Assembly (NCBI GenBank): GCA_037043015.1
Contig: CM073325.1
Coordinates: forward strand, 9,093,001-9,157,000
From: Bryum argenteum
Lineage: Eukaryota > Streptophyta > Bryopsida > Bryales > Bryaceae
Length of the DNA stretch: 64,000 bases
Direction of reading: 5' to 3'
Positions 1,330 through 41,655 of the stretch are shown piece by piece. Each line of letters begins with the position of its first letter. Position 1 is the stretch's first letter. The notes below the pieces were generated by a model. That model saw only the letters and a list, made by a program, of their open reading frames with translations, was not told the origin of the DNA and made no database searches. The translations under genes were made by a program, and so were the position numbers.

Positions 1330-1714
1330 CTCCTTTGACTTCTTCCATGATCGACGTGGAGGCATTGCTTGTATCGGGCCAAGTAGATTTGACAATATCA
1401 AGAAATTCTTGCTCAAAAGCGTGTTGATCAACCCACCCTAGAATATGTGCGGCTTGCCTGTAGAAATGGTGTCGGAAATTATTTGCTTGTGGATTTCTTG
1501 GCCAAGCTTTGGACTTCTTACGAACGCGTAAACTGCGCAAATGTTTTTGATCAAGCAGTGAAAGGAGGTCATGAATCTGATGTGCTCGAAGGTGTTTGCG
1601 TACAGCCCAGGAACGAAGGCGAGCTTCTGGATCGGCAGATGGAGGCGGCAATGTCGAAATAAGAAGTGGCTGCAAGTTTCCGACACTCACAACCGCAGTA
1701 TTGGGTTCCTGCAT
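1330..1714 (-). CDS. accessory ORF of piggyBac element A (unknown family)
   Basis: Open frame of about 128 codons ending at a good splice donor (GGAG|GTGAGT at 1330/1329), preceded by a possible acceptor (ATATGCAG at 1709). The predicted product is basic and helical-looking. Its most notable segment has LLSLLDQKHL (residues 50-59), RHHFY (81-85), ILGW (91-94) and a later TWP (111-113). An ORF in the same relative place in element B (41170-41655) has LLD, RHLFY, GICGW and IWP with identical RHxFY-x7-GW spacing. I recognise no domain. It may be a separate accessory protein or 5' exons of the transposase transcript; the phase with the 1252 exon does not join simply, so the gene model is unresolved. 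Confidence 0.5.
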
Positions 1715-1747
1715 ATGGTCATATTAGTCAGTTGATGTGATGTCAGT

Positions 1748-2242
1748 TTACCATGCAAGTTCCACATGCAAACCAAGTTCATGTTCATGTATTCGAACCC
1801 GTTGATGTGATCGCTCCTCGATCTGTGCAATCATCTGATCGCTCACTGGCGCATGGGCTGCCGAAGTTGGTGATGATCTGCAGGCTGCCGAACTTGATGC
1901 AGCGGCGACCTTGAAGCTGGACGGTCGGAGGCAGCTGCAGTACGCCTCCGAAGGAACTCGTCGACCTCCCTGGCACGTACAGTTCGCCGCCGATTCCTCT
2001 CGCTGAAGCTCAACCTCGGCGGCAAGTACAGTTGGACCACGAAGGAGCTGTTCGATCTCCCTGGCCGAAGACTCTACTGCGTAATCACCATTTTCAGTGC
2101 TCTGATCATTTTCGGTCCATACTGGCACCTCGATGAATCCTTCTCCTACTGTTGCACTCGCCTCTCTCGAATCGGTAGTTGCTAGTGAAATGATGGCAGC
2201 AGTCACAGGAACCCCGTCCAAAGAATTTGCAAAACTAGCCAT
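1748..2242 (-). CDS. first ORF of piggyBac element A, unrecognised
   Basis: ATG at 2242, 164 codons, the ORF nearest to the element terminus. The product is Ala/Ser/Glu-rich with a short Cys-containing patch (NCTCQGG; AYCSCLRP) and an acidic N-terminal half; no family is recognised. The frame closes at a TGG-TAA that overlaps a possible GTAAAC donor, about 40 bp before the acceptor at 1709. That would be an unusually short plant intron, and the phases do not match, so a splice to the next ORF is not supported. It could be a non-functional ORF in the element leader. Confidence 0.3.
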   Translation of the reverse strand: MASFANSLDGVPVTAAIISLATTDSREASATVGEGFIEVPVWTENDQSTENGDYAVESSAREIEQLLRGPTVLAAEVELQREESAANCTCQGGRRVPSEAYCSCLRPSSFKVAAASSSAACRSSPTSAAHAPVSDQMIAQIEERSHQRVRIHEHELGLHVELAW

Positions 2243-2783
2243 AATGGATTTTTGTTACTTTTGAAATATGCTTTGGATTTGATGTATGCTGTTTGTTGTT
2301 CCCAACATCTTTCCATGAGTTTCTCATTCAAATTCTGAAATTTGAATCGCCCCATGTCAGTGTGTTCTCAGCCGCCAGTTTCACGAAGTTTGTAGTTATG
2401 ACATGTATTTGGAGGGGGCGTCAATCTTTGGCCAGTCCCAAAGCATTCAATTCTGCCGAATGTTGGGTCCTCCAAAACCCTGCTTGGAACCCCTGCCCCT
2501 CTGGAGTTTTCTCGAGTGACCCTCGCAACTGCCCCCATTTCCACCTTGTTCCTTAGTGGCCACAACAACAACCCGTTCTGCCCTTTCTCAACTCCAAATC
2601 AAAAATTTGCTCTACAAGGCACTAAAATTGGAATCTTACTTTGCAAATTTTACCACACACAATTACTATGTTTCCCGACACACACACCAAATTACAGCCC
2701 AAAACACCAAAATTTGACCTCTCATCTAAGGTGCCCAAAACTGCAAAACGCCGATTCGGCTTTCCTGGGCCTTTAGGGGTTAA

Positions 2784-3566
2784 ATCCTACGTGACATACC
2801 TTTTGGTATAGAAAGGTTCTCAATTTTGAGCACGGGAAATCTATAGGGATGTTATAAGTATAGATCAACAGTATACATAGTGCATGTATTCTTGTGTATG
2901 AGGAAAATTAGCAGAAAGTCTGAGTAAGTGGAATCATCGCTTTTGAAAATATAGGTATTCTTAAATGGGTGCCCTAAAGTGACACCCCATAATGTATGCA
3001 GTGAGTACATAACATTGTTATATGGAGAAGCTATTATGTACCTATGAGTGAAGCTTACTCTGGAAACTGCTCCATTAAAAACCCACTCTACTACATAGCA
3101 ATTTAGCTTTGATGCGCAAATCCGTGGTGCAGTTTCCCAGGAGTATATTACGAAGAAAAAAAAGGGTTGTTATTTTATTTATTTTATTTATTTTTTATTT
3201 TTTTGACAATGGGAATTTTAAAAATTGGGGTATAAAAGGAGGCCATGGGGAGGGGGACTCGTGAAGCATGTGAGCATAGCCACTCACACTTTCATCTTTA
3301 TTCATATATTTATATATTTGTTTTGAACGATGGGGTACGCAAGTTGGCTAATAATGGCCCACTCACTATTATTATTTACTACTACATCATCACTCGTGGT
3401 TCTGTAGCTCTTTCATTCACAGACTGCTGCCCTCAGAAAAAAAAATATATATATAAAAGTTATTTGCTGCATAAAGTCTATGGTCCATCATCCATTTTGT
3501 CTTTTTTTGTCACACTATTTCCGTTGCATACTATTGCTAAACTTGCTTGAGACCTCATTGCCAGCA
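2784..3566. other. intergenic, AT-rich, nothing assigned
   Basis: No coding region or element boundary is convincing. There is a T/A-rich simple-sequence patch at about 3165-3205. A short stretch (2990-3060) shares the string AGAAGCTATTATGTACCTATG-like wording with the opposite strand near 9990-10020, suggesting an old dispersed repeat. Confidence 0.4.
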
Positions 3567-3577
3567 TTAACCCTTAA

Positions 3578-3938
3578 CCCTTAAACGTCTAAGGTGACCC
3601 GAGGGGTCCGATTCCAACAGAATCTTCTCTGTAGCACTCAATGTACTCAACTTTTCACTTATATTTTGATGTCAAACTGGTCACCTTCTTGTGATGCATT
3701 CAAAAAGTGAAATTTTAGAATTCAAATCACAATTTTTATGAGTGATTTTGTGCTTTGAAAGGATTGTGGTAGGTAGGTTGGGGTTGTACAATACTTGTAG
3801 GAGGTTGCAAGCTCATCATTGATTGGATCATTCATGATGCCCAAGTTCAAAAAGTGCACTATTCATGATGCCCAAGTCCAAAAGATGCTATGATCCAATA
3901 CCGGGCTGCCCAAATCCGTATAGCTAGACGTTTAAGAG
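3578..3938. mobile_element. piggyBac-type MITE, 361-bp family, copy 1
   Basis: Flanked by TTAA (3574-3577 and 3939-3942). Termini CCCTTAAACGTCTA / TAGACGTTTAAGAG are inverted repeats. The terminus itself contains a second TTAA, and an extra TTAACCC unit precedes it (3567-3573), as if another end had been inserted into and lost. No coding capacity. Internal sequence (ATCAATGATGAGCTTGCAAC and its complement) is shared with copies at 3943, 4872, 6118 and 15077. The end matches the left end of the transposase-bearing element B at 35693 (CCCTTAAACG). Confidence 0.8.
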
Positions 3939-3942
3939 TTAA

Positions 3943-4279
3943 ACACCCATGGGGTCTGAAACGGGCAGCGTGAAATTGGATCATAGCATCTTTTGGACTT
4001 GGGCATCATGAATAGTGCCTTTTTTGAACTTGAGTATCCAATCAATGATGAGCTTGCAACCTCCTACAAGGTTGTGTACAACACCAACTTGTCTACCATA
4101 ATCCTTTCAAAGCACAAAATTGTGATTCGTAATTGTGATTTGAATTGTAACATTTCACTTTCTGGATGCATCATAAGGAGGTGACTAGTTTAATAACAAA
4201 ATATAAGTGAGTATGGTGAGAGCTCCAGAGCGGATTTTGTTGGGAAAAAGTCCCTTGAGTTTGCTTGGGCGTTTGAGGG
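3943..4279. mobile_element. piggyBac-type MITE, 361-bp family, copy 2 (inverted, stacked on copy 1)
   Basis: Same family as copy 1 in the opposite orientation; the two share the TTAA at 3939-3942. The right end GGGCGTTTGAGGG meets TTAA at 4280-4283. Together copies 1 and 2 form an imperfect inverted pair about 700 bp long. The left end reads GAG-TTAA-ACACCCATGGGG, so the element boundary may be 3936, within the end of copy 1. Confidence 0.75.
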
Positions 4280-4283
4280 TTAA

Positions 4284-4543
4284 CCCCTAAATCTCCTTGT
4301 TGCAAAAAGGTCTAAGTCACAGAATTTGACCTTCCTTTAGATTAAGCTCTAAACATCTCAATCTAAGCATTATTTAAAGGATTCAACCGTAAGATCTCAA
4401 AGTTCACTTGACATTCTTCTCACATACCAAATTTGAACCGTTCATTCTTCCTCATTTGTGAGATTATAATGGTCAAAGTTGACTGAATTTTTCTCCTGCA
4501 GGAACCTCCAAAACCCGTTTTGGGTTTCAAATAAAGTCAGGGG
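4284..4543. mobile_element. TTAA-flanked MITE, 260-bp family, copy 1
   Basis: Starts CCCCTAAATCTCC after TTAA 4280-4283 and ends AAAGTCAGGGG before TTAA 4544-4547, so it abuts the previous MITE through a shared TTAA. A relative of the same length lies at 34366-34625 in the opposite orientation, and a third, interrupted by another element, at about 18290-19490. The uninterrupted TTAA at 4374-4377 is the paralogous empty site for that insertion. Confidence 0.72.
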
Positions 4544-4871
4544 TTAAGGTATTTACAAAACTCTTCAATACAAGATTCAATAATACAACTATTGTCAATC
4601 ACAATACACAAATTTATTTTGTATTCTTAATCGACAACTTTTCAAACAAAATCAATAGAGTATTCTTATTATTACTTTTTACTTTCTTAGTATTATGCTT
4701 CTTAATTCTAAAAATGTGTGTAAGGGCGTATCCTCACACTTGGGCCGCCGACCCGCTATTTTACAAGGTTCTTCCTAAAGCAAATCTCCATGAGGGAGGA
4801 AAGATAATGGAATGTTCTTATTAGGGTTGTCTTACATGACAGACTTTCAGTAATGTTTGTTTAACCCTTAA

Positions 4872-5225
4872 CCCTTAAACGTCTAGCTATACGGATTTGG
4901 GCAGCCCGGTATTGGATCATAGCATCTTTTGGACTTGGGCATCATGAATAGTGCACTTTTTGAACTTGGGCATCATGAATGATCCAATCAATGATGAGCT
5001 TGCAACCTCCTACAAGTATTGTACAACCCCAACCTACCTACCACAATCCTTTCAAAGCACAAAATCACTCATAAAAATTGTGATTTGAATTCTAAAATTT
5101 CACTTTTTGAATGCATCACAAGAAGGTGACCAGTTTGACATCAAAATATAAGTGAAAAGTTGAGTACATTGAGTGCTACAGAGAAAATTCTGTTGGAATC
5201 GGACCCCTCGGGTCACCTTAGACGT
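4872..5225. mobile_element. piggyBac-type MITE, 361-bp family, copy 3
   Basis: Begins CCCTTAAACGTCTAGC after stacked TTAACCC units (4861-4871). Its right end (GGTCACCTTAGACGTTTAA) is interrupted at the terminal TTAA (5226-5229) by the foldback element 5230-6113; the lost GGG of its end reappears at 6118-6120. Nearly a reverse complement of copy 1. Confidence 0.75.
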
Positions 5226-5229
5226 TTAA

Positions 5230-6113
5230 CCCCTAACTCTCCTTGAAGCCCGAAATGGGTTTTTGCAATTCCGGGCAGCCTAGATGAAGGGATTAAAAGT
5301 AATATTTTTGCCTAAGAATTTTATCGGGTCCTCCTTATACTGCAAAGTGTATGTGGTAAAATTTGCAAAGTCAAATTCCAATTTTTGAGTCTTCTAGGAC
5401 GATCCTTGGGTTGCGAGCCGAGATGGGGCAGCTCAAAAAAGTAACATTTTTGAATTTTTTTTTTGGAAACATGATCATTACTAAATCACTACTCAAATTT
5501 CAGAGTGACTCAAGTCAAAAAGTTTACCAATTTTACAAGGGCAGCCTCCAAAACAATTTTGGGAGCTTGAAACCTCAAAACTGAAATTCTCTACCTCTTA
5601 GGACTCGTGGGGGTGTAAACCGATTTCTTTTCTTTTTTTAAAACTTCCAACGGTAAGATCTTGTACCAAAGAATATGCTTGATTACTCTTCAAAAAATTG
5701 ACCGTTGGATGTTTACCATTTGAGAGATCATAACATCCAAAGTTTGTCTCCCAAGTTTTTTTGGGTATTGCGAAGATTGGTTTTAAAATTTTTGGAGGCT
5801 GCCCTTGTAAAATTGGTAAACTTTTTGACTTGAGTCACTCTGAAATTTGAGTAGTGATTTAGTAATGATCATGTTTCCAAAAAAAAAATTCAAAAGTGTT
5901 ACTTTTTTGAGCTGCCCCATCTCGGCTCACAACCCAAGGATCATCCTAGAAGACTCAAAAATTGGAATTTGACTTTGCAAATTTTACCACATACACTTTG
6001 CAGTATAAGGAGGACCCGATAAAATTCTTAGGCAAAAATATTACTTTTAATCCCTTCATCTAGGCTGCCCGAAATTGCAAAAACCCATTTTGGGCTTCAA
6101 GGAGAGTTAGGGG
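5230..6113. mobile_element. foldback MITE with ~320-bp inverted arms
   Basis: TTAA-flanked (5226-5229; 6114-6117). The first ~320 bp and the last ~320 bp are almost perfect inverted repeats starting CCCCTAACTCTCCTTGAAGC, with a ~240-bp spacer. A transcript through it would form a long hairpin, a typical source of small RNAs. The arm sequence resembles the 5' end of piggyBac element A (2590-2779), not that of element B. No ORF of note. Confidence 0.85.
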
Positions 6114-6117
6114 TTAA

Positions 6118-6550
6118 GGGCTAAAGCCGTTAAACGCCCAAGCAAGCCCGAAGGGCTTGATTCCAACAGAATCTGCTCTGTAGCTTTCACTGTAATCAAC
6201 TTTTCACTTATATTTTGATATCAAACTGGTCACCGTCTTGTGATGCATTCAAAAAGTGAAATTTTAGAATTCAAATCACAATTTGTATGTATGATTCTAT
6301 GGTTTGAAAGGATTGTGGTAGGTAGGTTGGGGTTGTACATAACCTTGTAGGAGGTTGCAAGCTCATCATTGATTGGTTCATTCATGGTGCCCAAGTTCCA
6401 AAAGTGCACTATTCATGATGCCCAAGTTCAAAAAGTGCACTATTCATGATGCCCAAGTTCAAAAAGTGCACTATTCATGATGCCCAAGTCCAAAAGATGT
6501 TGTGATTCAATTTTGGGCTGCCCGTTTTAGACCCCATGGGCGTTTAAGGG
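6118..6550. mobile_element. piggyBac-type MITE, 361-bp family, copy 4 with internal triplication
   Basis: The left end is degenerate (CTAAAGCCGTTAAACGCCC); the right end GGGCGTTTAAGGG meets TTAA 6551-6554. It is longer than its relatives because a ~31-bp internal segment (CCCAAGTTCAAAAAGTGCAC...) occurs three to four times in tandem at about 6387-6495, a local expansion absent from the other copies. Confidence 0.75.
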
Positions 6551-6996
6551 TTAAATTGTTGTCTTTGACATGTCCGTTTGACGTCAAGTTGGACGGGAAT
6601 GTCAGATCATACTAGAAAATGCATAGTAAAAACATGAACATTTGCCTCTTCGATGTCGTTTGCCTCCTCCGAGGGCGAATGTCTGTCTAACTGTCGTGTG
6701 TGTCTCGTTCGACAGTGTTGCATAAGACAACCCTCGTCCTCATGTGTGGACCGCACTTTGAAACCCTTCCACTTAGTTTAGGTAAAAGACATAAAGTCAT
6801 CTAATGTGAGCTCACCAAACGAAGGAGTTTCAAAAAGCATGCGACTATGAGGGGAGTATCATTCAAGATAAGGAATGAGGGTTATCTGTATTATCAAGAG
6901 GGCTTGCCAAGCGGGAATTCTAAAGAAGAAATTACCGCTTTTATTATGAAGGGTTAGGTGTCCTCAAATTGCATGGGAGCCACCTTCACGCCACTA

Positions 6997-7128
6997 TTGT
7001 CTTATCACACCAAATTCCTATATATTTGTCAAACACAATTTAGATGAAATGTACATATGATACATCCAAGACGTCTTAGATGTATATCTCATCTGACAAA
7101 TGAATAAGAACTTTGTTTGATAAGACAA
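6997..7128. mobile_element. small inverted-repeat element, hAT-like ends
   Basis: TTGTCTTATCA at the left and TGATAAGACAA at the right, about 130 bp apart, with an internally palindromic centre (CCAAGACGTCTTAGATG). The ends resemble those of the 9493-9678 element. A target duplication was not found, so the boundary is approximate. Confidence 0.45.
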
Positions 7129-7567
7129 CCCTGCCTCAGGCTCAAATAAAAGCAGCTCGGTTGGAACATGGGGAGAGGCTCTTAGTATATTTTACAGACT
7201 TCATGTTAGACCAAATTTCTTGCACTTTTATTTCTTCTAAGGTAGAATGACCTTAAACCGCACGGCCCCCCAGAAGCGCAAGGCAGACCGCCCCTGAAGC
7301 TGCCCATGGCGTGGACCTAATTGCACGCATAGCAATTTCATAAATAGTTACTCGATATGGACATGTGTAGGGAGGTGGTTGGTTCATGGTTCATCAACTC
7401 TATTTTGCACAGTTTTAGCTACATGCGTGAGCGCCACTGTAAGGTAACTTACATTGATAGATGGATGAATGAAATCTTCTAACCACATTGGACAGTGTGT
7501 AAGCAGAGGATGAAAGGAGTCAGACAACTCCCAGTTGAGGATGGATGGACCGAGTCGATAACCTGCA

Positions 7568-7745
7568 TTGAGAACATGTGCACCGGAGTTAGACAAACTC
7601 TATATTTAGTGCATTGGAGTCAGACCACTCCAAGATTGAGAACATGTGCACTAGAGTTAGACAGCTCTATATTTAGTGCATTGGAGTCAGACCACTCCAA
7701 GATTGAGAACATGTGTACAAGAGTTAGACAACTCAAGATGAGGTA
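7568..7745. repeat. tandem repeat, ~68-bp unit, 2.6 copies
   Basis: The phrase TTGAGAACATGTG recurs at 7568, 7636 and 7703, each followed by an AGTTAGACA-type segment. It happens to leave a short open frame on the plus strand, but this codes for repeat-derived peptide only and is not taken as a gene. Confidence 0.75.
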
Positions 7746-7961
7746 CACTAGAATTAGACTACTGATAGTAGTCAATTAGCTTTACTCTAAATATAAGAGT
7801 AAAGATCTAGAATGATCTATGAATAGGCTAGACTCTGGAACATAGCCTAAGATAGACTGTAGTTCCTTTTGGGAAGGAACTCATATATAAGCTCGGGGGT
7901 GAGAAGGTAGAGGCTCTTTTTGGTAGTGAGCTCTTCTCTATGGTTGGGAGGTTGAGCTTAA

Positions 7962-8568
7962 CCCTTAAGCGGGCCGAATGTCGAAAAACGACATTTTGGA
8001 TGACACCAACTTTGGAGAGCCATAACTTCTTCATCCGGACTCCGTTTTGGACGAAATCACTTGGGTTGGGTCCCAAATCAAGTCTAGTTCATGTAATGAA
8101 AATCTCAGACCCATACAATGAAGTATGAATTAATGGCATGCATTTCAGTGACAGCAGCCTAGTTTTAGACATTTTTTCCTTTGTAAAATTTAGGGCAGTT
8201 TTCACCATTGCAGGGCCATAATTTGCACAAAGAAATTTTTCTCATGGTTTTTTTTTGTTCAAGGATGCTACTGAGATGAAGGTGAACAACATTCTAATTG
8301 GTGACTTTTTCATTGCAATAAGTCTAATGGTAGCATTTTCACTTTAAAGTGAAAATGATGAAATTATGTGATCATTTTTGAGTATTAATACATTATGATC
8401 TCGCAATCTATGAAGCCTCATGACTCAAAATTTGACCCACATGATGTTCAATATGTCTACGACAAGATTGTACGGTTGAGATTTGGATAACACACTTTTA
8501 CCTCCACCTATGACAATGCTTTTGAGGATGTGTTCATTTTACTACAAATGAGTCAAACCATTTAGGGG
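7962..8568. mobile_element. piggyBac-type MITE, family B, copy 1 (607 bp)
   Basis: Between TTAA 7958-7961 and TTAA 8569-8572; ends CCCTTAAGCGGGCC and CCATTTAGGGG. The left subterminus contains GTCGAAAAACGACATT, which matches the subterminus of transposase-bearing element B at its 42161 end (GTCGAAAAACGACACT). Related sequence occurs at 14666-15657, 15761-16057, 19600-20517 (inverted) and 59825-60319. No coding capacity. Confidence 0.75.
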
Positions 8569-8572
8569 TTAA

Positions 8573-9484
8573 TAAAGTTCTGGGTTTTGTCTTCCTAGCC
8601 AAATTGTGTTGTGAGTTGGTAATAAACCTATTAGAGGGTTGTTACAGCCACAAAGTACTAGTCTGACGGATAAAAAGAAGAGTCTACTGATCACTTTAAG
8701 GTCATGTACACTTTTGACTTCAAAAATTCGTAGTAAATTCAATTTTTGCTATTTTATTTTCGAAATTTTTGCATTCACTCTCCCTCCTGTTTTCCCATCC
8801 AAGAAAAATTACAAACAGTACACACGAGGTCCACAACCATGTTGAATCTCTTATTTGCGCGGTTTAAGGTCATTCTACCTTAATTCATCGATTCCAACAA
8901 TAGTATCGTATCACACAACATCATGATAGAGTACAACATAGACAAGGCATGAAACTATAGGTTGTTTGTTTTCTTATAGCCGACCATTCCGTCCTTTAAT
9001 TGTACAAATGCAAAATAAGGCTGAGATTCATGGAGGCGTTCACATCAACATTATTATTCTTTTTTATAGCATCACAATAGCATGGCTCCACCTTTAGATG
9101 CAATTTCTTTGAGCTTTCTTACTACAAAACAAAATGTTTTTGGAAATCATTGAAATGTTCCATAAAAGAGAAGTGCATTAGAAAATATCATTCTCCAGCA
9201 ATTAAAATTAAATTTAAAATTAAAATGTTACTACTTCTCATTTATTACCAGAATTTCAAAACATTTGTTGGGTGTTACAAAACTCCCCCCGGGGGTGCAA
9301 TTCTTTTGTTGCCAGAAGTTCTTTAATCCTAAATTTTTAAACTACATTAGAAGTTTAGAATTGCCCAAACAAACTTTTTGATTACACACAATGTCTTGGT
9401 GGATGGGGAGATGGAAACTTTTGTTTTGTTACGTTCTTGTTGTGGGGGTAAGTTTGTTAATGGGTATTGAACACAATTGAATCA
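8573..9484. other. intergenic, nothing assigned
   Basis: AT-rich DNA with no ORF that shows codon structure or a recognisable family. A C/G run (CCCCCCGGGGG, about 9287-9297) is the only compositional oddity. Confidence 0.35.
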
Positions 9485-9492
9485 TTCTCTAC

Positions 9493-9678
9493 AAGGGTTG
9501 TCTTTTGCGACGGTGTCGAATGTTATACATGCACGACGGTCAGACAGACATTCACCCTCGGAGGAGGCAGATGACATCGAAGAGGCAAATGTTCCAGTTT
9601 TACTATGCATCTTCTGGTATGGTGGAACATTTCCGTCGAAAAGACATTACGGAAAGTGTGTCATGTAAGACAACCATG
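9493..9678. mobile_element. hAT-like MITE with 8-bp target duplication
   Basis: Ends AAGGGTTGTC / GACAACCATG are inverted repeats and are flanked on both sides by TTCTCTAC (9485-9492; 9679-9686). An 8-bp duplication and a GGGTTG-type terminus are characteristic of the hAT superfamily. The short ORFs inside (9477-9690) are incidental. The element is an inverted relative of the interrupted copy at 4834-6734. Confidence 0.65.
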
Positions 9679-9689
9679 TTCTCTACTTG

Positions 9690-28117: not shown

Positions 28118-29290
28118 TTAACCCCTATACGTCCCTAGGATAAAATTGCATGAATATTTTTTTTTTAAAGTCTTTATTTTTGACAGTTTGTAAAATCAAA
28201 TCAAAGAAGGTAGTTGGAAATTGAACTGTAGGATGTTGAAGAGTGGGTGGTGTAGATCATGTGGGCTAGTTTTAGGCTTTGGTGATGAGTAGGATGTGAA
28301 AGATTTATCAAAAAGTCCCAAAAATGGGGGCTGAAAATGTTTGGGCAAATGTTATTTTTTAAGTTTATTTTTTGACAAATCATAAATAGGTGTTACTTTC
28401 CTTAGCAATTAAGGTGGGCTTTCCACTAGCCCAATAAAATTCACATTGTTTGTCATAAGAGTACTTATGTCGTTGTTTGTCCCAATATAGTTCTCTTAAC
28501 GTTGCTTGAAAGTTGGGTTGCTCTCCCAACATACTAGAGCTCGATCTATTACGATTCGCTCTCCGTGCTCTTCTTGTCATAACCCATCCTCCACGAGTAA
28601 CTCCCCGACCCTGCGTACCTTGTAATTGAAATATATTGTTGGATGAAAGGGATTCACCCTCCGATAAATTAGCTCTATCATGATAAGATTCATGCTTCCC
28701 TCCACTATTGCAATCCTCACCTTCCAAACTTGGCAACAATTTAGTGATATTATTATTCTCTCGCTCCACATGGTCGTCGATGTAGCCTTGAACTCCACAC
28801 TAACCTGCACCCACATATTCAAAGCTGTTGTTAATGTCCGATGGGCTTGGAAAGCTTTGTTGGACCTCGTTACAGGGTTGTGATGGCCATTCCTCCTCTT
28901 GGAACAACTTGTCTCCGTCCATGGTCCTGGGTGCCAATGCTGTCTTCTACTCCGCCGACCGGATTCAACAAAGCCGCTGAGCCTTGTTGACAAGTGCCGT
29001 TGGCGTCTAGCTAAGCCAACCCTTGTCGCTACAACCTTGTCTTCGGCTGACAGGCGCCATTGGCAGAGTGCTTTTCGAGAATACCCCTTCCTCAGTGGCC
29101 ATGCATGCCGAGCCATCCTTTGAGGTTGCCGATGAAGACAGGACCCCCTCCTCAGCTGCCAGACTCCGACGTTGCGCTCCCCAAGTTCTTCCATGTACTA
29201 CAGCAGGTCCCTCACTTCTCCAACTTGCCAATTGTGACCTTTTGTGTATTGAATCCATATTGGTATAGTTGCCAAGTAGTTGTTGAGCAT
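28118..29290 (-). other. possible decayed transposon coding region
   Basis: Starts at TTAA (28118-28121) followed by CCCCTATACGTCC, a piggyBac-type end, but no partner end was found. On the minus strand a 129-codon ORF (28769-28380) has a Ser/Asn-rich, basic middle (RRARRANRNRSSSS) and a C-terminal piece with LRELYWDKQRHKYSYDKQ. Upstream lies GC-rich sequence open in two minus frames (28577-29258). No domain is recognised; this may be a remnant of an element leader like that of piggyBac A or B. Confidence 0.3.
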
Positions 29291-30874: not shown

Positions 30875-32176
30875 TTAGATCCAGTCTTCCTGCTGCAGCT
30901 TAAGGGGAAGATAAACCTCGGATAGGTACTGAAACCCAAAGGAGCTGAGCGCTTGAATCTCAGCTTTCTCCTTCGTCTTCACCATGAGCTCCAACTCCTT
31001 CACCCAGTTCTTATCCTTTTTGATAAAATCCTCCTCCAACATGTCCTTGCCAGTTTTAATATCCTGATCCGACATGGGAAGTCGGCACTGCTCGGGAATC
31101 TTATACTTATCCAAGTCGCTAGGCCGCACTCCGAGCCACTTGATATCCGGAGTGGTCAAGTTCGAGCTATCATACGACATGTTCTTAGAACCCGACATGT
31201 ACACAGACAGAATTTTAAGCCCATACGGATCGCTGTCTACAAGCCCCAGCACTGGCAGCTTCAAGTCCGTCTTCATCTTCCTCAGAAACAACCTTGTGGC
31301 CACATCAGGCTGCCCTTTCGCTGTGATAATCACACAAGGAAAGCGGTTGTAGAATCGATCTTCTGCCAAGCGCATGAAAGCAGCATCTTTTTCCACGAGT
31401 AAAATAAAGAGTGCATCGCTTTCCATGCTCTGTACTTTGTCGATGTTGGGAGGAATGGCTTTTCCTCCCACTCCCATCTTCGTGCAGTCAATGCGATCAC
31501 CGTCCTCCACGAACACCAAGCGTCCTACTACAACTCCTTTCTCACTTGCCACAACATTCAAGCTTGACCGAGTGCATCCCAACATGCAAGAGACGTCATC
31601 GAGTATGGTGTCACTCTGGCCCTGCTCCTGGAACAGCTTCACATCAGTATAGAAGAGGTCTCGCTTTGTGACGTGAATCCGCTTCGTGCAGAGCTGATGC
31701 ACGAGCTGCAGAATGCGAGTGGTGATGGCTGTTTTGCGAACGCTGGCTATGTTGGCGAACTGTCGGAATGAGGCTTTGTCCTTGAGGACGATGCGGTCCA
31801 ACTCTGGTACGTAGAGCTGATTTGCACTGGACCGGCCAGGTATCAAGTAGCCGAAGCCATTGCCGCTGAGAATGGACTTCGCAATGGCCAGGATGCTCTT
31901 CTCGATCTCGAAGATGACGCTGGTCGTGTTCAGGTCGACCACTTCCTTGCATGTGTTGGCGAGATTCAAGTCTGCTAGAGTGCGTGTCTCCGTTTGTGTG
32001 TCTTTTGAAGTTTGGCAAAACTTCGTCACGGATGCTAGGATCTTGTCGTCGGTCTTCAGCTTCTTCTTGAATGCCAGCGCTGCCTTCGCTTGCTGCTTTG
32101 GTCCTTCTGCTGATGTTCCTGGTTCGTCGTCATAATCGTCTTCCACTACCTCTCGCGCTTTGCGCTTGTCCGCCAT
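30875..32176 (-). CDS. TOP6A: DNA topoisomerase VI subunit A (SPO11-3/TOP6A type)
   Basis: Intronless frame of 433 residues, close to the ~430 of plant TOP6A proteins. The N-terminus is acidic and disordered (residues 1-45). The catalytic tyrosine is Y176 in [10 protein letters not shown], in the winged-helix 5Y-CAP region. The Toprim fold follows, with the metal-binding glutamate E262 (LLVEKDAAF) and the acidic pair D314/D316 (GLVDSDPYG). All key residues are present. With subunit B it forms a type IIB topoisomerase that in plants drives endoreduplication and cell growth (the SPO11-3/BIN5/RHL2 role), rather than meiotic breaks. The upstream DNA is shared with that of the NIPP1 gene (see 32225 and 58370), so its promoter has probably been rearranged by transposons. 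Confidence 0.95.
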
Positions 32177-32224
32177 CGCTCAATGCCGAATCCCTGAAAC
32201 ATCAACGTACTCAACTCAAAATCC

Positions 32225-32557: not shown

Positions 32558-32907
32558 GATGGTAAAGGGGAAGGCCCCCATCGGAGGGACTCCCGGCCTG
32601 TGAGGGACCCGACCCGAGGAGGGCGGGAGCCCGACGAGGGAGGGTCACGAACTGGCCGGGAGTCCCAACGATGGGACCTCCCCGGCGTAACTACTCCCTG
32701 TAAATGAAACCCTGGGTAGGTTCGGGCAGGGCGGGCAGAATCGGCACTTCGGCTGACGTACGCTTCCAAAATTTTATAATTATATTATTATTAAATGAAA
32801 TGTGAAAAGTTTTCTATGAGCCTATATGAAGCTACAATGCTCAAGGTCGTTCCACGAAGGGAGAGCCTCCCAGACATCAAAGGTTAATTTACAAGGAGTA
32901 GTTACGG
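32558..32907. repeat. GC-rich palindromic block, copy 2
   Basis: Nearly identical to 10585-10935 over the GC-rich hairpin and the inverted-repeat element (ends at 32686-32705 and 32887-32906). The perfect 34-bp palindrome of copy 1 has collapsed to one arm here. High identity between the copies points to recent mobility. Confidence 0.65.
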
Positions 32908-33023
32908 GATGGCGAAGCCTTGGATGGGGATGGCAAAGCCTTGGATGGAGATGGTTCGCTATCGATGGGGACGGATGGAGAAGACCATCGGAGCGAATGG
33001 AGCCAGATTCAAGCTGGTATCGA

Positions 33024-33387
33024 GATAGATAGATAGATAGAAATTCCGGTCCTTTTTAAGGGGCCGGCGTGAATGAAGTGTCCATTCGTAATGCTAATAT
33101 CACAATGGCGACCGGACAAGGGGAAATTGGAACAATACTACTTCCCCCTCTCGAGGGTGGACACTATGACTACGCTAGTTTCTAGCCTAGTTACTAGTGC
33201 CTTGAAGATACTTGACATAGTATCCCCCCAAAGGGCTTTGAGGTACTCATACAACAAGGTCCAAGGACCTCCCACAATAGTTGGGTGGACTATAGTGGTG
33301 AGCACCACGCCGTCATAGGGAATAGAACCCATCACCTCCTCATTGGGGGCCTAAGCCCTAACCACCAAGCCAAGGCTTGTGGTGCCT
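33024..33387 (-). mobile_element. tRNA-derived SINE, full length, minus strand
   Basis: Same family as 16069-16426, starting on the plus strand with the complement of the (TATC)n tail. A 12-bp target duplication AGCTGGTATCGA flanks it (33012-33023; 33388-33399). Intact duplication and high similarity suggest fairly recent insertion. Confidence 0.88.
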
Positions 33388-33399
33388 AGCTGGTATCGA

Positions 33400-34361
33400 A
33401 TGTTACCCGGATAGATAAGGTAACCGGAGTTACCGAGACCAGTAATGTACAAGTAATTTATATTGATTTCAAGACTCCCCTATCTTAATTTCATTGAAAA
33501 TACAAAGGTCGTATTCTTAAAGATTGAACTATATTGATTCAATCTATGTATTAAAGATGTATGATTGTATATTGGTTATTGAGTAAAACTTTATAAAAGA
33601 TAAAAGTTGCAAAGTGTACATTGTATATTACATCAAATTTTTCTTCTAATTTCTTATGTTTTTAGGGGTTGATAGTAATTAGGATAAAACCCAATCAAAT
33701 TAAAATTAGATCACAAGATTCTATAACCATTTCCATATCATTATGAAAAAAATTCAATGGTTTTGTTATTCCTCATTTTAGAAATTCTTGCATTTAGAGC
33801 ATAACACAGTGAATAGTCACTTTAAACACATAGCAACCAGTTGAACAAATTTTCTTCTTTTTTTTCTTTTTTTTTCTTTTTCTTTTTTCTTTTTTAACTT
33901 ATAAGTGTAGAATCTTGTACCTATGACTATTTTTTGTTACTTTTGTAAAAATAACCGTTGGATGTTTACCATTTCAGAGATCATAACAAATAAAGTTCAA
34001 AATTGGTACACGTTTTCACATGGGTAACTTTGGTACTTAAGTTGTGATTTGGTTAAAAACATATTTTTAGAAGAATTTAAAATAGACTAAATTTAAACTT
34101 CTTTTCTTGGACTTGAAAGTTGAAATTTCTATATGAAGGTTTCAAAATTGGATATTGACTTTCCAATTTTACCGCATGCAATTGCATATTGCGGTAACCC
34201 CTATAAAATAGTATACTGAATGTTAGGAGGCTTACTCTAAAATAAACCTTTGTTTCTATTAAGTTTGAAATTTTAAAAAATTAAAAATAAAAAGATTTCA
34301 AATTTCCCGTAAAATTGTTCATCAATATTAAAGGGTAATTCTCAAATATAATTTTTCATGT
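33400..34361. other. TE-derived AT-rich DNA
   Basis: A TTTTTAGGGGTTGA end at about 33660 and the phrase ACCGTTGGATGTTTACCATTT (33954-33974), which also occurs in the foldback element spacer (5700-5722), show this is diverged TTAA-element material. Polypyrimidine run at 33855-33895. No gene. Confidence 0.4.
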
Positions 34362-34365
34362 TTAA

Positions 34366-34625
34366 CCCCTAAAAATCCAATAAACCCGAAATGGCTTGTA
34401 GGGGTTACCGCAAGAAGAAAATTTAGCTTAACTTTGTCCATTATAATCTCACAAATGAAGAAAATCAATGGTTCAAATGTGGAAGGTGTATAAAACGTCA
34501 TGTTGAGTTATAGATCCTACGGTTGGATCTATTGTATGATCCTTAGATTGGAATTTCTTGAGCCCAAAATAGGAGGAGGTCAATTTCAATAATTGATGCA
34601 ATTTTTCATCATAGATCCTCAGGGG
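34366..34625. mobile_element. TTAA-flanked MITE, 260-bp family, copy 2 (inverted)
   Basis: TTAA at 34362-34365 and 34626-34629; ends CCCCTAAAAATCC and GATCCTCAGGGG. Same length as the 4284-4543 copy and reverse-complement to it (CTTAACTTTGTCCATTATAATC region). Confidence 0.72.
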
Positions 34626-36357
34626 TTAATTATTGTAAAACTTCTTTGTTTTGTTATATAATTATTTTTATTTCAGAGTTGAATTGGTATTGAATGAAAT
34701 TTAAAACTAATAAAATTGGTAAAGTTGATAAGTTTTATACCGTAACTATAAAGGTTACAAATACTACATTAAAATTTTCAAACTTAGTTTGGTCAATAGT
34801 GGTTAGGGTATATTGATTCAAAATTCATTGAACTCTAGTAAAATAATAAAATTTCATTAATATTTTTTAATTTCCTATTTATTATATATGTGTGAATTAC
34901 AATCTTGCAATCTATGTGATTGATTGTAGTAGCGATTTATCAAATGTATAATACATATTATTGAATTGAACTATATATTTTTAAATTTTTAACCAATTTG
35001 GATGAAAATTGATGTTTCAAGTTATAATATATTGTATTTTATCCAATTGTACCAAGAAGTGGGTGATATTGTATAATATGCTCAACTAGAATAGAAAATG
35101 CACAACCAACATTTTGTACATATTTCCGTCGCCATATATATTCGGCAAAATAACTATCGTAATGTTTTTTTACTGTACCATACCATGGCAAAGAACGTTT
35201 TATAGCACTCCATGTCACTTCAATAGTATTAGTATGTGTTCCTGTATTTGGATCGCGAAGATATAAAGAGTGATTTACCGTTTCGTGAAAATAGCCCAAA
35301 TAACCCAAACGTTCCGTATTATAACCACGCCAACAATCACTAATAATAGTACCAGGTTCAAAAAAATTCACAATTATTTCCTCTAACATGTTTGCCGTTC
35401 GATTTAGAACACATGTTAAAAAAATGTTATCCAAGCCACGCTCGACACCTTCAAAAACCCATTGCCCTTCTACTCGCCTCCCGCGGTTATATTTTCTTTT
35501 ACCGAATTTACTTTCATCAATCTCTACAATTTTACCTACTTCTCTAATTCATTCTACATCTTCATCATTCATTACTAAGACACAAATATCTTTACAATAA
35601 TTATACCAATCTACGGTGGTATGATTATCGCCAATCTCACCATGCATACGAGCTACCATTTGACTAGTTTGGGTAGCCCAACAATACATTAACCCTTAAA
35701 CGCCCAAGGGGGGGGTAAAGCTCCAAAAAAACTTGTAAAAACGCTGATTTTTTCAAAACTGCGTACAGAAAAAAAGAAGATGAAATAGATAATCCAACCG
35801 TGGGATCTTCTTTGGAGCATAGCAATTAGTATGTCTACAAATTTACATGCTATTTGGAGCTATGGATTCCAAGATCCTTGCAAAAAAAGGGTGAAAAACG
35901 CCCCCAAAAAAGGAGGGGCAGCAAGCATCACCCCACTTTAGGGGTGTAATACTTTTTTTGAGAGCCTCGGATAGAAATAATTCCTTCTAAAGAAAGGAAG
36001 GTAGGAGAACATAGAAGAAGAATCCGAAAACGGATTGTGAAAAAAAATAATTAAATAGCGGCAATCTACCTTGCAAGGCAAGGTGGTGAAATTGTGGCCA
36101 AAAGGAGGGCAGCCCTATGGAAGGAAAAGAAAGTAGACTCCGAAAGATTTCTGTTTTTGCTCAAAGAGGTGCTGGCCCGTAAGAAACTACATGTTTTAGC
36201 CCAAATATCTCAAAATCTACCAAACGAATGTTGCTAAATCTTGGCGGGTTGACTAATTGGACGGCTATGAATTCAAATTTACTATTAGATTTCAGAAATT
36301 AGACTCCCAAAGATAATTTACATTGAATTCAAGCTAGAGGGTTTGAGAGTGACACGC

Positions 36358-38946
36358 CTACTTGGCGCGTGCAAAATGGGCCTTGCGATAGCATTCGCCC
36401 AAGTGAAACCACGCATTGTCACAATCTCGGCACATGAGATTAGTGCGAGGCGTCTTGGCCTTGCACTGGCGACAGATGTGGCGGGTTCCGGAGAACTTCT
36501 CCAACGAATGCACGCCCGGTTTGGCGTTGTAAACCGACACCACTCCACCACGACGTATCTCTCAATTCTCCATGACAGAGAACTCGAGTTCGGTGACAAA
36601 TTCCAAATGGGACTTAGGCCTCACCCCGAACTTCGTGCTCAAATCACGATGCACGATGTAGGAGTTCGTCATCGACAGGTCCATCAAAAACATGAAGATC
36701 CGGTGCCACCACTTATGGCTCTTGGTCAACACGCTGTAAACACCTCGGAGTTGATCATTCACATCAACTCCACGCATCTGATGCGTATACTCCAAATGAA
36801 TGGGTGAGGTGGGTACGTGAACCGTCCGGCCATTAGTATACCGTGGCACCGTGAGAGGGAACTCCGGGTCCGGCGAGAGCGGCTCTGCATGGGTAGATAG
36901 CAAAAGAACGGGTTTTTTATCAACCCAGACCAATGCACACAACTCACCGGTGGAGTGCATACGCCAGTCCATCGCGCCTTGCGGCTCCTTCGCCCACCGT
37001 CGCTTGTCGATCAAAGCCGACGGTAATCCGATACGATTGGCGCGCACTGCACTGCGTGCCGTGCGTCGTCCCCAACTCCAACATGTCCACCAAAAGCCGT
37101 GGCGAGGTGAAGAAGTTGTCGGTGACCGCGACGTGGTCTCGCCCATGTAGCCCCTTCATCAAATCCATGACGACCTCATAACCTGTCCTCGCCTCCCCTG
37201 GCTTCGCCCGCGCCAAGTTCTTCTTCAAGTCGGCACCGGTGTACATCTGGAATTTATACAAATACAATAAACCTCTTAGAACAACTTGGATTTCACTTAG
37301 AACAACTTCTAACAAACTTAGAACAACTTGGCTAACCTATTAGAACATTTTGGATTTCACTTAGAACAACTTCTAACAAACTTAGAACAACTTGGCTACC
37401 CACTTAGAACAATTTTGATTTCACTTAGAACAACTTCTAACAAACTTAGAACAACATGGCTAACCTATTAGAACAATTTGGATATCACTTAGAACAACTT
37501 CTAACAAACTTAGAACAACTTGGCTAACCTATTAGAACATTTTGGATTTCACTTAGAACAACTTCTAACAAACTTAGAACAACTTGGCTACCCACTTAGA
37601 ACAATTTTGATTTCACTTAGAACAACTTCTAACAAACTTAGAACAACATGGCTAACCTATTAGAACAATTTGGATATCACTTAGAACAACTTCTAACAAA
37701 CTTAGAACAACTTGGCTAACCTATTAGAACAATTTGGATTTCACTTAGAAGAAATTCTGAAAAACTTAGAACAACTTGGCTACCCACTTAGAACAATTTG
37801 GATTTCACTTAGAAGAAATTGTGAAAAAATTTAGAACAATTCGCATAACAATCTAAATAGAACTTTGCCCTAGTTCTAGCAACAATTACCTGAAAATTGT
37901 ACAAGTACTTTGACGCCGCGTCCGCTGCTGCCCACACCTTGAAACCAAACTTCACGGGCTTATTTGGCATATATTGTTTCATGCCATGGCCGTATATCCC
38001 TTTGTACCTCACCATCATTTCATCTATGGTAACGAATTGACCTAAATTCCAATTCGCCATGCAACGGTCCTGAAGCTCATCTAACAACCACCGGAGTTTG
38101 ACTAATTTGTCAAACTTGGGATGGTCACGTTAAAATGGGTGCCTCCGAATCGTTCACAATATGCAAACACTTGCTAATGGCCTCAAATCTATTCCTAGAC
38201 ATGCAACCCGCAATTTTGCTACAATAAAAAAACGGCTCTCTCTTCCAATAAGCCCTTCTATGAGGCAAAACCTTCAACCCCATCAATATACAAATCCCAA
38301 GCCACGCCTCTAACTCAACCCTCCCTAACCTCCACCATGCACTTGGTCCCCTCGGGCAGTTTGTGGAGGGGTCAATCGAGGCGGCATACCTATTAGTCTC
38401 CCTACAAATTTTTAATAGAGTCCGTTTGGTGAAAAACAAGTGGAAAACGTCCTTCACACTAGGAAGATCCTTTGGCACATGTGTCGGGCCCGGCATTCGC
38501 CCATTGCAATTACCCTCACCATGGTTATACTTGGGCCTTCCATTCAACCAAAAAGCATCATCGTAACACTCTTTCAATGTAGGGGGCTCGTCCCGATTTC
38601 GGAGCCCCCTCACCCGCTGGAACTTACGCTCTTCCATTCGGCGTAAATTTTCCACTAAAGGGATGTTGTGGGGCTGTGGAGCTGCTGGAGTTGGTTGATG
38701 TTGACGCTGGCTGTCACCGCTATCTTCGTATTCGCCACGATGTACACTTTCTGCTGATTCCGATGTGCCGTTGAAAAGATCTGTTGGGTGGTCTCTGCGG
38801 CTCCCCTTGCCAGACTCTCCTCTATTTTCGTGGCATCCACTTGCGCACCCAGCCATGGCCTCCCGCCCTTCCCCCATGTTCTGATCTGAAGACAAAACCC
38901 AGAGAAGATATCCCGGCAGATGATTCTTCAAGTTCCAAATCCACAA
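36358..38946 (-). pseudogene. piggyBac transposase (DDE_Tnp_1_7), decayed
   Basis: Order on the minus strand: acidic leader; F-x-LFFTKRTLLKICRETNRY; LGICILMGLKVLPHR; TIDEMMVRYKG with the first catalytic D; VKFGFKVW; YNFQ, then an intron (37890-37247), MYTGADL; HVAVTDNFFTSPRLL with the second D; MRGVDVNDQLRG with the later acidic residues; and a C-terminal Cys-rich zinc finger (CRQCKAKT, CRDCDNAWFH). Breaks: a one-base frameshift near 38127 (before HPKFDKLVKL), a second near 37065 (between LELGTT and VRANRIGLP), and an in-frame TGA at 36562-36564 before the zinc finger. It would not make a full transposase as written. Catalytic motifs remain readable, so decay is recent or partly an assembly error. 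Confidence 0.88.
37247..37890. repeat. transposase intron filled with ~64-bp tandem repeat
   Basis: The donor (CAG|GTAATT) and acceptor (ATTCCAG|ATG) enclose 644 bp, most of it (37270-37835) an array of ~9 units containing TTAGAACAACTTCTAACAAA. Units alternate in a higher-order pattern of about three (GGCTAACCTATTAG, GGCTACCCACTTAG, ACATGGCTAACC), a period near 193 bp, as in young satellites. Confidence 0.85.
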
Positions 38947-39061
38947 AATAATTCAATATCTATCACACACATCTCAGGCAAACTTTTCGCAAGTTTTTTA
39001 CATCCCTAATTGTGACGCTACAATATTATGCCAGAGAATCTTGCTCAAAACGGGTGCCATG

Positions 39062-40195
39062 TCAAATCGCTTGAATTTCTAAACTTGCCCACCGCGGATA
39101 TATGAGTTGAGAAGAGGAGAAAGGGACGAGGCAGCATATACTGTTCAAGAGAAAAGAAAAGAAAAGAAAAGAAAAAAAAAAAGAGAGATAAGAGGGAGGA
39201 CGAGGCATACCTGCAAGCGCATGATCCGCTACAGCCAGCTGTGCCAGCTGATCGGTACCAGCTCTACACCGAGCCATGGGCTCCTCCCCTTTCCCGCGCC
39301 AGTTCGGTAACGTGCATGCAGCAGCAGCTCTCCCCTCTTCTCCCGCGCCAGCAGGTCTCCCCTCCTCTCCCGCGCCAGCAGCTCTCCCGCCCTCTCCCGC
39401 TAGTTGCCCCTCCCGCCTGCGCCCCTCTCGAAGTCGTGCAGCAGCATTGGCCACCAATGGCTCAGAACAGGGATCGCCGAAGGCGCTTCGATCGCAAGCC
39501 TCTCCGCTTCTGTACGAGCCGCTACCGGAGCTCATGGCGCTTGCGCTTAGGGTTTTCTCCCAATCCTCATTTCCAGGTTCAGTAGCAATCCCGATTCTTC
39601 CAATATCGTCGTTTAGCAAGAAGAAATCTAATTCTTTCTCGCTTTCGCTTTCAGATCCAGAGGAGGAGTTAGAAATCAAGTCAAACTCGGAGGGCCAGAT
39701 AGAATTCACTTCCTCCTCTTTTGTTTTGCAATGTGTGTGGATGGTATGAATCTCCCCAAATGGTACGTTTTGCATTTCTCCCAATACATCAACTGAATAC
39801 ATTAATCTGTGAGTATTATCACATACAAAACTCCGGACGGCTGTGCCACGAATCCACTCATCAACATCTAGATCAGTATCGTCTATCGTTTCTTCTCCTA
39901 CTTGTCGCAAGAATTTTACTTCCACAGGGTTCGTGATGACGGTGGGCAGTAACTTCTCTAGCTTCAAAGCTTTGTTGATGATTCTGGCATTAGGAGCCCT
40001 GTCTGTCGCTTGCAGCACTGATGAAGGTACTCGATGTGCTCTTGGTGCCTCCCCTGGAGGACCTCCACCATGTATCCTCATCGGTAGTCTCCCTCCCCAC
40101 GGTGGATGCTGCAGTTGTTGGACTCCCTTGCTTGCTGATCTGATCTCAAAAACATGGTACACATCAATCTCTTTTGACAACAACAACGAGGCCAT
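39062..40195 (-). CDS. leader ORF of piggyBac element B, unrecognised
   Basis: Open frame of 377 codons just upstream of the transposase. The central part reads as a plausible protein (KLEKLLPTVITNPVEVKFL, DDTDLDVDEWIRGTAVRSF, SSSGSESESEKELDFF), an acidic segment like those at the N-termini of piggyBac proteins. The C-terminal third is Gly/Ala/Glu low complexity over a GAAAAG simple repeat (39150-39185) and is probably not coding. It may hold a 5' exon of the transposase. No known domain. Confidence 0.35.
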   Translation of the reverse strand: MASLLLSKEIDVYHVFEIRSASKGVQQLQHPPWGGRLPMRIHGGGPPGEAPRAHRVPSSVLQATDRAPNARIINKALKLEKLLPTVITNPVEVKFLRQVGEETIDDTDLDVDEWIRGTAVRSFVCDNTHRLMYSVDVLGEMQNVPFGEIHTIHTHCKTKEEEVNSIWPSEFDLISNSSSGSESESEKELDFFLLNDDIGRIGIATEPGNEDWEKTLSASAMSSGSGSYRSGEACDRSAFGDPCSEPLVANAAARLREGRRREGQLAGEGGRAAGAGEEGRPAGAGEEGRAAAACTLPNWRGKGEEPMARCRAGTDQLAQLAVADHALAGMPRPPSYLSFFFSFLFFSFLLNSICCLVPFSSSQLIYPRWASLEIQAI

Positions 40196-41169
40196 GAGCT
40201 TCTACTTCGTGCACAAATACTAGCCATCTGTTTGATTGAATGTCTGCTAACATTCGATTTCTGTTTGCAGCAAGTCGATACCACAGTCTTGGGTCTCTCC
40301 CCCGCCGCAGCTGCTGAGATGCCTTATATGGCATAGATGGGTATTTACGTGTTTCGACGACGACAATGCAAAAAATCCTCATCAGGGCAGTGGAGAGCTG
40401 CCTTCTTCGTCATGGGTACCCCTTCTCTACCAAATCTGGACGGGTCATCGAATGGAAGTTGCACAGATTGTATGATGATTGACTGAGTTTGGGTTTTGGT
40501 GTAGCAGGAGTGCAACTGCTGGAGAGAGTTGCGTACTACGGCATCGCGCTGAACTTAGTGACGTACCTGGTGGTCGAGCTTCACCAGGGGACACAAGAGC
40601 CCAGCTCCACCATCTTCAACTAGGCGGGCGTGGCATGGCTGTTGCCGTTGCTTGGCGGCTTACATGAACGATTACAGAAGGTGAGAGTATAAAGTGTTGT
40701 ACCTTGTGGAAGCTGACACGGTTGTCGTTGTCGCTCTTGAAGGCTGCTTCCGGCGGGTCAATCCAGCTACTGGACTTCGGGGCTCTAGTCGGGAGGTGGA
40801 GTTGACCACCTGCTTCCTCCGATCCGGTGCCAACCGTGTAGCGTGCTCTCGACTTGATTCCTCGTGGCCGCCAGGAGAGGAGCTGGATCCCAACGACGGA
40901 GTTACTGATCTCAAGGGTTGGCTCCTTCTTGTCCGGATCGACGCTGACTTCAGGCTTAGTACTGGTGTATCTGGCGAAGATTGTACAGGTAACATAACAT
41001 TTTCATGACATTGCCCCCATTACATGATCAGAAAATGCATGCACTCTATCCAAATTCCACCGTTACATCACTCTTAGTGTCTCATTAGAAATGAAAGTAA
41101 CCAGTGTAAAGGAGAAATTTGAATTGTGAAGATTGGAATGTGAAAATTGCAAGACTGTATTGTGTAAAC

Positions 41170-41655
41170 TTACATGGCATTGCTTGTTGTGTTCTTGACA
41201 GTGATTGGTGTGATCTTGCCTTCTCCATCCTCCTCAGATGATGCTGAAGAGCATCTTGGCTTCTTCCTTCTCCCACCTTGAACTCTAAGCCGCTTCTTGT
41301 GCCCATGGCTAGAGGGCCAGATTTGCCTAATTAGAGTATAGAGAAGGGGTGAAATCCCACCCTTGTCACCCTCTTCCACTCTCTCCCTCCACCCACAAAT
41401 CCCACTAAGGTGGTGGTAAAAGAGGTGTCTCAAACCCTCATGTGTGTCCCTCTTCTCAACTTTGTTAGAGCATGGCAAAGCAAGAAGTATGTTTCTATCT
41501 AAGAGGTTCTTGAGGAGCTGGATCTCTCCTTCACCCAAGCCCTTCTCCTCTCTCCCCCATCTCTCTATCTCCCTCCTAGCATTCTCCAATAACTCAATGT
41601 TTGGTGCCATTGTGGGTGGCAATTGTTCTAATTTATGCAAGAAATATTGGCCCAA
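41170..41655 (-). CDS. accessory ORF of piggyBac element B (unknown family)
   Basis: 161 codons, about 500 bp inside the 42161 terminus. Predicted product basic, helical; contains LPPTMAP (12-18), LLKNLLDRN (47-55), LRHLFY (75-80), GICGW (85-89) and IWP (112-114). The corresponding ORF of element A (1330-1714) has LPPPSAD, LLSLLDQK, FRHHFY, ILGW and TWP in the same order. The last codons overlap a strong donor (CAT|GTAAGT at about 41174); a matching acceptor near 40970 opens a further frame with IKSRARYTVGTG that ends at another donor (CACAAG|GTACAA, ~40700). Either an accessory protein or 5' exons of the transposase gene. Low global identity, so the relation rests on motif order. Confidence 0.5.
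   Translation of the reverse strand: MGQYFLHKLEQLPPTMAPNIELLENARREIERWGREEKGLGEGEIQLLKNLLDRNILLALPCSNKVEKRDTHEGLRHLFYHHLSGICGWRERVEEGDKGGISPLLYTLIRQIWPSSHGHKKRLRVQGGRRKKPRCSSASSEEDGEGKITPITVKNTTSNAM

Follow-up and report, generated by a model that had tools for sequence, protein, structure and literature searches.

Do two diverged piggyBac elements that share one stretch of a genome have more in common than the transposase by which they are recognised? The question is raised by a window of 64,000 nucleotides (nt) of Bryum argenteum (contig CM073325.1 of assembly GCA_037043015.1; G000:C5:9093001-9157000 in a genome of 258.8 Mb in 25 contigs). Both of its elements, A and B, carry an open reading frame (ORF1) between the 5' terminus and the transposase frame (ORF2). 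A sequence-only reading had placed these ORFs at 1330-1714 and 41170-41655, and both lie there, on the minus strand. Judged by sequence comparison, they are members of one undescribed family of domains of ~90 amino acids (aa), and by its substitution pattern this domain is under purifying selection. The transposase of the A and B types appears, from its reading frame, to start at a +1-frame ATG overlapping the end of ORF1. With moderate confidence, we favour the explanation that ORF1 encodes an accessory protein, which would come from an overlapping cistron in the A and B types, would be fused to the transposase in D-type relatives, and would work with the transposase. The elements and their domain copies lie in the window as follows.

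1..2779, minus strand: 5' part of element A, which runs past the left window edge
2780..2783, no strand: TTAA target site at the 5' end of element A
1330..1714, minus strand: ORF1 exon of element A, with its ATG at 1712-1714 and a predicted GTGAGT donor starting at 1329
1379..1621, minus strand: conserved domain of ~90 aa, type A
35693..42161, minus strand: element B, between TTAA sites at 35689-35692 and 42162-42165, with terminal inverted repeat (TIR) CCCTTAA[AG]CGCCCA
41174..41610, minus strand: ORF1 of element B, beginning at its ATG and reaching a predicted GTAAGT donor, whose first intron base is 41173 (predicted splice)
41317..41574, minus strand: conserved domain, type B
46998..47183, plus strand: type C copy, the third of the domain in the window, cut short by a stop, with a TTAA and piggyBac-like terminus at 46588

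The homology of the two ORFs, which the sequence-only reading had proposed, is borne out. Direct comparison by BLASTP gave E 3e-5 at 24% identity (a single comparison), and comparison of profiles gave P 1.8e-15 for A with B, 5e-14 for A with C and 1.7e-20 for B with C. The profiles combine 21 sequences of type A, 17 of type B and 17 of type C; the C copy in the window did not enter the C profile. Each window ORF matches at least ~150 places in the genome, and the divergent member L053, used as query, found A, B, C and D copies genome-wide with E below 1e-4. The consensus of the domain reads W...LLD..LL.LP...RHxFY-x7-GW...R..WP. Four residues (W12, L36, L39 and F58) are invariant in an alignment of 42 sequences, which omits near-duplicates as well as L062, where a stop codon interrupts the extended stretch. 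The predicted spacing of RHxFY-x7-GW is exact in both window ORFs (RHHFY-RQAAHIL-GW in A, RHLFY-HHLSGIC-GW in B). Two other motifs of the proposed pattern need revision. LL-x-LLD is present in A (LLSLLD) and absent from B (LLKNLLD), while LPP is not a common motif: it is missing from the 42-sequence consensus, and the LPP of B is probably not part of the protein, since it lies upstream of the ATG at 41610, the probable start of ORF1.

No Pfam family is matched at E below 0.03 by any of the 42 domain sequences, and PDB likewise gave no significant match for the domain (best chain, E 0.3). When viral contigs were scanned with the domain profile, 36 pattern matches came up, of which none was confirmed as a relative. 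The domain is strongly basic in type A, with a median net charge of +8, and near neutral in types B and C. In the window's element B and several B-type relatives, ORF1 continues into a basic stretch resembling a nuclear localisation signal; in element B this stretch is KKRLRVQGGRRKKPRC, and an acidic SSASSEEDGE is also present.

Our results show linkage of this domain to piggyBac transposases. Among 116 scored matches to the transposase family PF13843 (out of 775 candidate places in the genome), 95 are preceded on their own strand by a listed domain, at a distance of 1.4-6.5 kb between listed start coordinates. The controls gave 0 upstream on the opposite strand and 3 downstream on the same strand. 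A first pass with 338 listed domain places had linked 85 of the 116 transposases, and 28 added places raised this to 95 while contributing 0 to both controls. The 338 places were drawn from ~450 listed matches after repeats, fragments and lower matches had been removed by eye, and the 28 were likewise chosen by eye as new; for the types of domain recognised here, the true number is at least 95. A transposase was present at 10/10 of the first 10-kb loci, which are a non-random sample because they were picked partly for long open frames, and at 2/3 of the later loci (not at L093).

That both window ORFs lie inside piggyBac elements, as had been claimed, is supported by the elements themselves, each of which has TTAA on both sides. 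The whole of element A spans C5:9090079-9095779, with 5,701 bp between its TTAA sites and the TIR CCCCTAAAGGCCCA; element B ends on both sides in TTAA and a 14-bp inverted repeat with one mismatch. The short TIRs of A and B both begin with CCC. TTAA and the TIR are present at the 5' end in 30/30 copies of element A examined, and TTAA at the 5' end in 7/8 B-copy loci; a scan found no terminus in L007. The window's type C copy, which the sequence-only reading had not listed, sits 0.4 kb inside its TTAA-flanked terminus. The transposases match DDE_Tnp_1_7 (PF13843) with E 6.8e-60 for element A (L015), E 1.5e-75 for L009, and E 7.9e-20, 4.6e-17 and 1.1e-13 for the pieces of element B. The stretches DEMM, DNYFTS and GVDVADQL, which we take to be those of the catalytic DDD triad, are visible in the transposase sequences, as are Cys-rich tails, for which no Pfam zinc-domain match exceeded its cut-off. 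Both transposases are interrupted in the window's copies.

The ratio of nonsynonymous to synonymous substitutions (dN/dS; Nei-Gojobori, pairs with dS 0.05-1.5, which are not independent of one another) had a median in the domain of 0.18 for type A (12 pairs), 0.14 for type B (50 pairs) and 0.46 for type C (21 pairs). The set comprised 72 sequences, kept after identical domain DNA had been merged and matches of less than ~60 profile positions dropped. When the same DNA was read in the +1 and +2 frames, the ratios were 1.30 and 2.26 for A, 1.22 and 2.45 for B, and 0.81 and 2.20 for C. Since amino acids are conserved across deep groups and dN/dS is ~0.15, it is a protein that seems to be selected, and not merely an ORF. 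The suggestion of selection has thus held, with 0.14-0.18 in the A and B types and 0.46 in type C, all below 1. The outcomes named beforehand as speaking against the sequence-only reading did not occur: the ORF is present in additional piggyBac copies, the profiles match significantly, and dN/dS stays below 1.

How ORF1 relates to the transposase can be followed in the frame that opens at its end, where the window has these features.

1363..1365, minus strand: putative start codon of transposase ORF2 of element A, in the +1 frame inside ORF1; MPPRRSWKKSKE
1253..1329, minus strand: predicted 77-nt intron of element A, which joins in phase 0 of the ORF2 frame (KSKE to MEWDN)
1164..1166, minus strand: ORF1 stop of element A if the predicted intron is spliced, giving a 125-nt overlap with ORF2 as in intronless relatives
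1..1252, minus strand: ORF2 exon 2 of element A, extending past the window edge (L015) and holding most of the DDE_Tnp_1_7 match
41304..41306, minus strand: putative ORF2 start codon of element B, in the +1 frame; MGTRSG
36442..38598, minus strand: transposase core of element B (DDE_Tnp_1_7), in pieces and interrupted in the window copy

Within a 27-nt window directly after the domain, a +1-frame ATG is found in 19/21 A, 31/33 B and 8/17 C copies; the B count includes close relatives of element B, and after removal of near-duplicates the highest count for a +1 window is 21/23. The other frames have far fewer, with frame-0 ATGs in 5 A copies and 1 B copy, and +2 ATGs in 0 A copies and 1 B copy. 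A purine stands at -3 of the ORF2 ATG in 19/20 A and 18/21 B copies. In most A types the +1-frame methionine follows directly on the domain, typically as MPPRR(R)S..K(R)xK(E/Q). In 14 B-type copies the +1 ATG stands at offset 127, and 13 of them read M-x-T-T-[RK]. The codon phase switches at this point. Within the domain the third position of frame 0 is the most variable (.205/.154/.554 in 15 A copies,.241/.132/.509 in 14 B copies), and over the four codons just past the ATG it is the third position of the +1 frame (A,.645 vs.231/.345; B,.462 vs.245/.269).

The A types also share an exon joint. In seven intronless copies (L072, L074, L076, L078, L079, L086 and L087, in which L072/L076 and L074/L078 are near-identical pairs), the +1 frame continues into MEW..., where the long ORF of the transposase begins. 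Other A copies, element A included, have a donor-like site, the final base ahead of the GTGAGT in element A being 1330, and then an acceptor AG directly before ATGGA[AG]TGG, which restores the intronless reading. This acceptor pattern is present in 8/10 intron-type copies examined and absent from L077 and L085. Intron-type and intronless copies join at the identical place and in the same frame. The eight predicted introns measure 77-94 nt and only one of them is divisible by three, so the ORF2 frame fits owing to the positions of the sites. The overlap of ORF1 and ORF2 is 125 nt in element A after predicted splicing and likewise in the intronless L072, L074, L076 and L078. A possible extra exon of element A may lie 5' of the ORF1 exon, in an ORF at 1748-2254.

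The D types are organised differently. This group is ~40-49% identical to most of the listed C-type places, and its nearly complete copies are 80-88% identical among themselves. At three D places a single frame of 1056, 994 or 1059 aa is common to the domain match and the transposase match, and the positions of the two agree in frame. In L108 the fused frame, which ends at codon 1033, has no stop from codon 51 onwards. Beyond the domain, L108 and L109 maintain this frame through a common VRVETVxEV-like stretch, where many stops interrupt the two alternative frames; L110 shows the fused reading and then meets a stop. Further D-type places among those listed have shorter frames. Because the D types carry this in-frame fusion, the domain is found in two arrangements, as an overlapping ORF of its own and as an N-terminal part fused to the transposase. 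The sequence-only reading had left the choice between an accessory protein and an extra N-terminal domain. The former fits the A and B types better, because their transposase frame starts in +1, and the latter is right for the D types.

The main rival for the translation of ORF2 is +1 frameshifting. On that explanation, which we consider unlikely, the domain would be an N-terminal transposase domain in all elements, with the A and B frames joined by programmed +1 frameshifting or by a frame-changing alternative splice. It would readily accommodate the plain in-frame fusions of the D types, the +1 offset in A and B alike, the +1 frame that is open from slightly 5' of the ATG, and two copies (L009 and L010) that are open through the predicted intron. 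However, frameshifting needs no conserved ATG with a purine at -3, and no common slippery sequence was noticed on reading the sites by eye, without a formal test. In the intronless A copies, an intron could not fit between the domain and the ATG. Moreover, L009 and L010 were chosen for their long frames and are the only two above 1000 aa among the matches listed. An upstream ORF that overlaps the next one generally lowers downstream initiation, and ORF1, which lies 5' of ORF2, overlaps it and has a good start context, has this layout. Yet it is improbable that ORF1 is a translated upstream ORF limiting transposase synthesis, with the domain acting alone, for instance as an element-encoded repressor: the deep amino-acid conservation and the dN/dS of ~0.15 point to a selected protein, and in the D types the domain belongs to the transposase frame. 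Chance resemblance, or a captured fragment without a role, would suit the low direct identity of A and B, but it is contradicted by the profile statistics, the linkage and the selection, and we give it next to no credence.

Several observations weigh against the explanation that we favour. The copies were found via protein similarity and partly picked for open frames, which favours low dN/dS. In the B types, a +1 ATG at offset +19 occurs in 18/23 lineages, compared with 13/23 at +127. The former is accounted for by the peptide YHHV, which illustrates that codon constraint alone can conserve out-of-frame ATGs; therefore, our case rests on the codon-phase switch and the shared exon joint. If introns are retained, the domain and the transposase of L009 and L010 share an open frame, 1290 aa long in the former and 1331 aa in the latter. 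We considered from these frames a simple spliced N-terminal exon and rejected it, as comparison with L013 and the A types points to introns inside and a +1 transposase start; by our reading, their long frames would reflect chance openness of the introns. Type C has the +1 ATG in only 8/17 copies and a dN/dS of 0.46, 21 of the 116 transposases are without a listed upstream domain, and the D-type fusion means that a joined reading frame is retained in some elements. Finally, leaky scanning is not favoured, because the start context of ORF1 is strong and the ORF2 AUG in B comes after 1-7 others (typically 4, against ~6 expected). Leaky scanning through loss of AUGs was also rejected, the depletion of AUGs being weak.

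An accessory protein encoded by ORF1 would work as follows. In the A and B types ORF1 would form its own cistron and ORF2 would begin at the +1 ATG that overlaps its end, whereas in the D types the domain would be joined in frame to the transposase. Splicing would take place at the predicted sites, and ORF2 would be translated separately, preferably via an alternative transcript or else by internal initiation. The ORF1 protein would enter the nucleus and act together with the transposase, where it may bind the transposon ends or serve in the assembly or regulation of the transpososome. There is, in our judgement, an even chance that these elements form a large, recently active, two-component piggyBac group, in which the overlapping cistron would code twice over up to ~125 nt of messenger RNA and fusion or fission would mark the accessory protein as part of the transposition machinery.

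Element A moved recently, since at least 58 exact full-length copies of ORF A exist (150 places scored of 323 candidates). Thirty copies compared over 3 kb show three substitutions outside one variable spot, which lies ~1456 nt past the ORF1 ATG and at which 9/30 copies deviate from the common form. Short indels of 1-3 nt cluster in the transposase half of the copies (L019-L048, L089-L091) and leave ORF1 untouched; they may be real damage, or else mistakes of the assembly at homopolymers or methylated sites. At no fewer than five places a copy of ORF A adjoins an open transposase frame of 831 or 916 aa, so copies that look intact exist. Contig C1, the largest seen (44.1 Mb), has one fragment and none of the 58 listed exact full-length copies, where ~10 would be expected by length, and the recent burst may have skipped this chromosome. 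Two copies, L031 and L042 (C2:1911416 and C2:1913987), abut 5' end to 5' end with one common TTAA.

Other parts of the window carry further traces of transposons. A fragment of an IS1595/ISXO2-type transposase, presumably Merlin-like, lies at 35039-35548, directly outside the 3' end of element B. On the minus strand, 28380-28799 holds a decayed piece that by eye looks like the region preceding the catalytic core of B-type transposases (as in L016), and a Pfam search with this piece gave no match; a TOP6A/Spo11-type gene lies nearby at 30875-32179. Termini resembling TTAA-CCCTTAA occur in both orientations at 3574, 4868, 6541, 7958, 15073, 15425 and 59821, and are perhaps those of non-autonomous piggyBac derivatives.

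The elements described here resemble the piggyBac superfamily, including the piggyBac of T. ni, in their TTAA sites, short TIRs starting with CCC, and DDE_Tnp_1_7 catalytic domain (PMC7351741, which gives the domain layout of the transposase, and PMC9499001). As in T. ni piggyBac, a long stretch that looks of low complexity by eye precedes the catalytic domain. According to PMC9499001, the N-terminus of the piggyBac transposase comprises ~100 aa, is mainly acidic and predicted to be disordered, and has a little-known function. Unlike the piggyBac elements described there, those of Bryum have a conserved domain added, either as a separate overlapping ORF or fused. Within one open library, seen in part, we found no recognisable report of a second overlapping ORF in piggyBac, which is not proof of absence.

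This matters because piggyBac, a main tool for engineering genomes, is regarded as a system of one protein, and our finding suggests that piggyBac elements can be two-component systems. If so, end recognition, regulation or targeting could be divisible between two proteins. A second conserved component encoded by the element would offer a new domain for testing, elements found in nature with the domain on a separate, overlapping ORF can readily be compared with others that carry it fused, and the recently mobile element A could be studied in its host. Second ORFs are familiar from other DNA transposons, namely PIF/Harbinger, CACTA and MuDR elements. Like these, the A and B types have an accessory ORF adjoining the transposase, and the ORF1 protein could similarly aid nuclear import or end binding. 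They differ in belonging to another transposase superfamily, in the overlap of ORF1 and ORF2 in different frames, and in that ORF1 gave no match to Myb or any other Pfam domain; the Pfam results for the 42 domain sequences include no Myb-like match of the PIF/Harbinger kind. The domain added to the transposase in PGBD1 is SCAN, of which neither ORF1 nor its domain gave a match. Still, the D types are similar to PGBD1 (PMC9499001) and CSB-PGBD3 (PMC3459987) in having an extra part N-terminal to a piggyBac transposase. PGBD1 and CSB-PGBD3 are host genes, whereas the domain described here matches no Pfam family and resides in multicopy elements flanked by TTAA.

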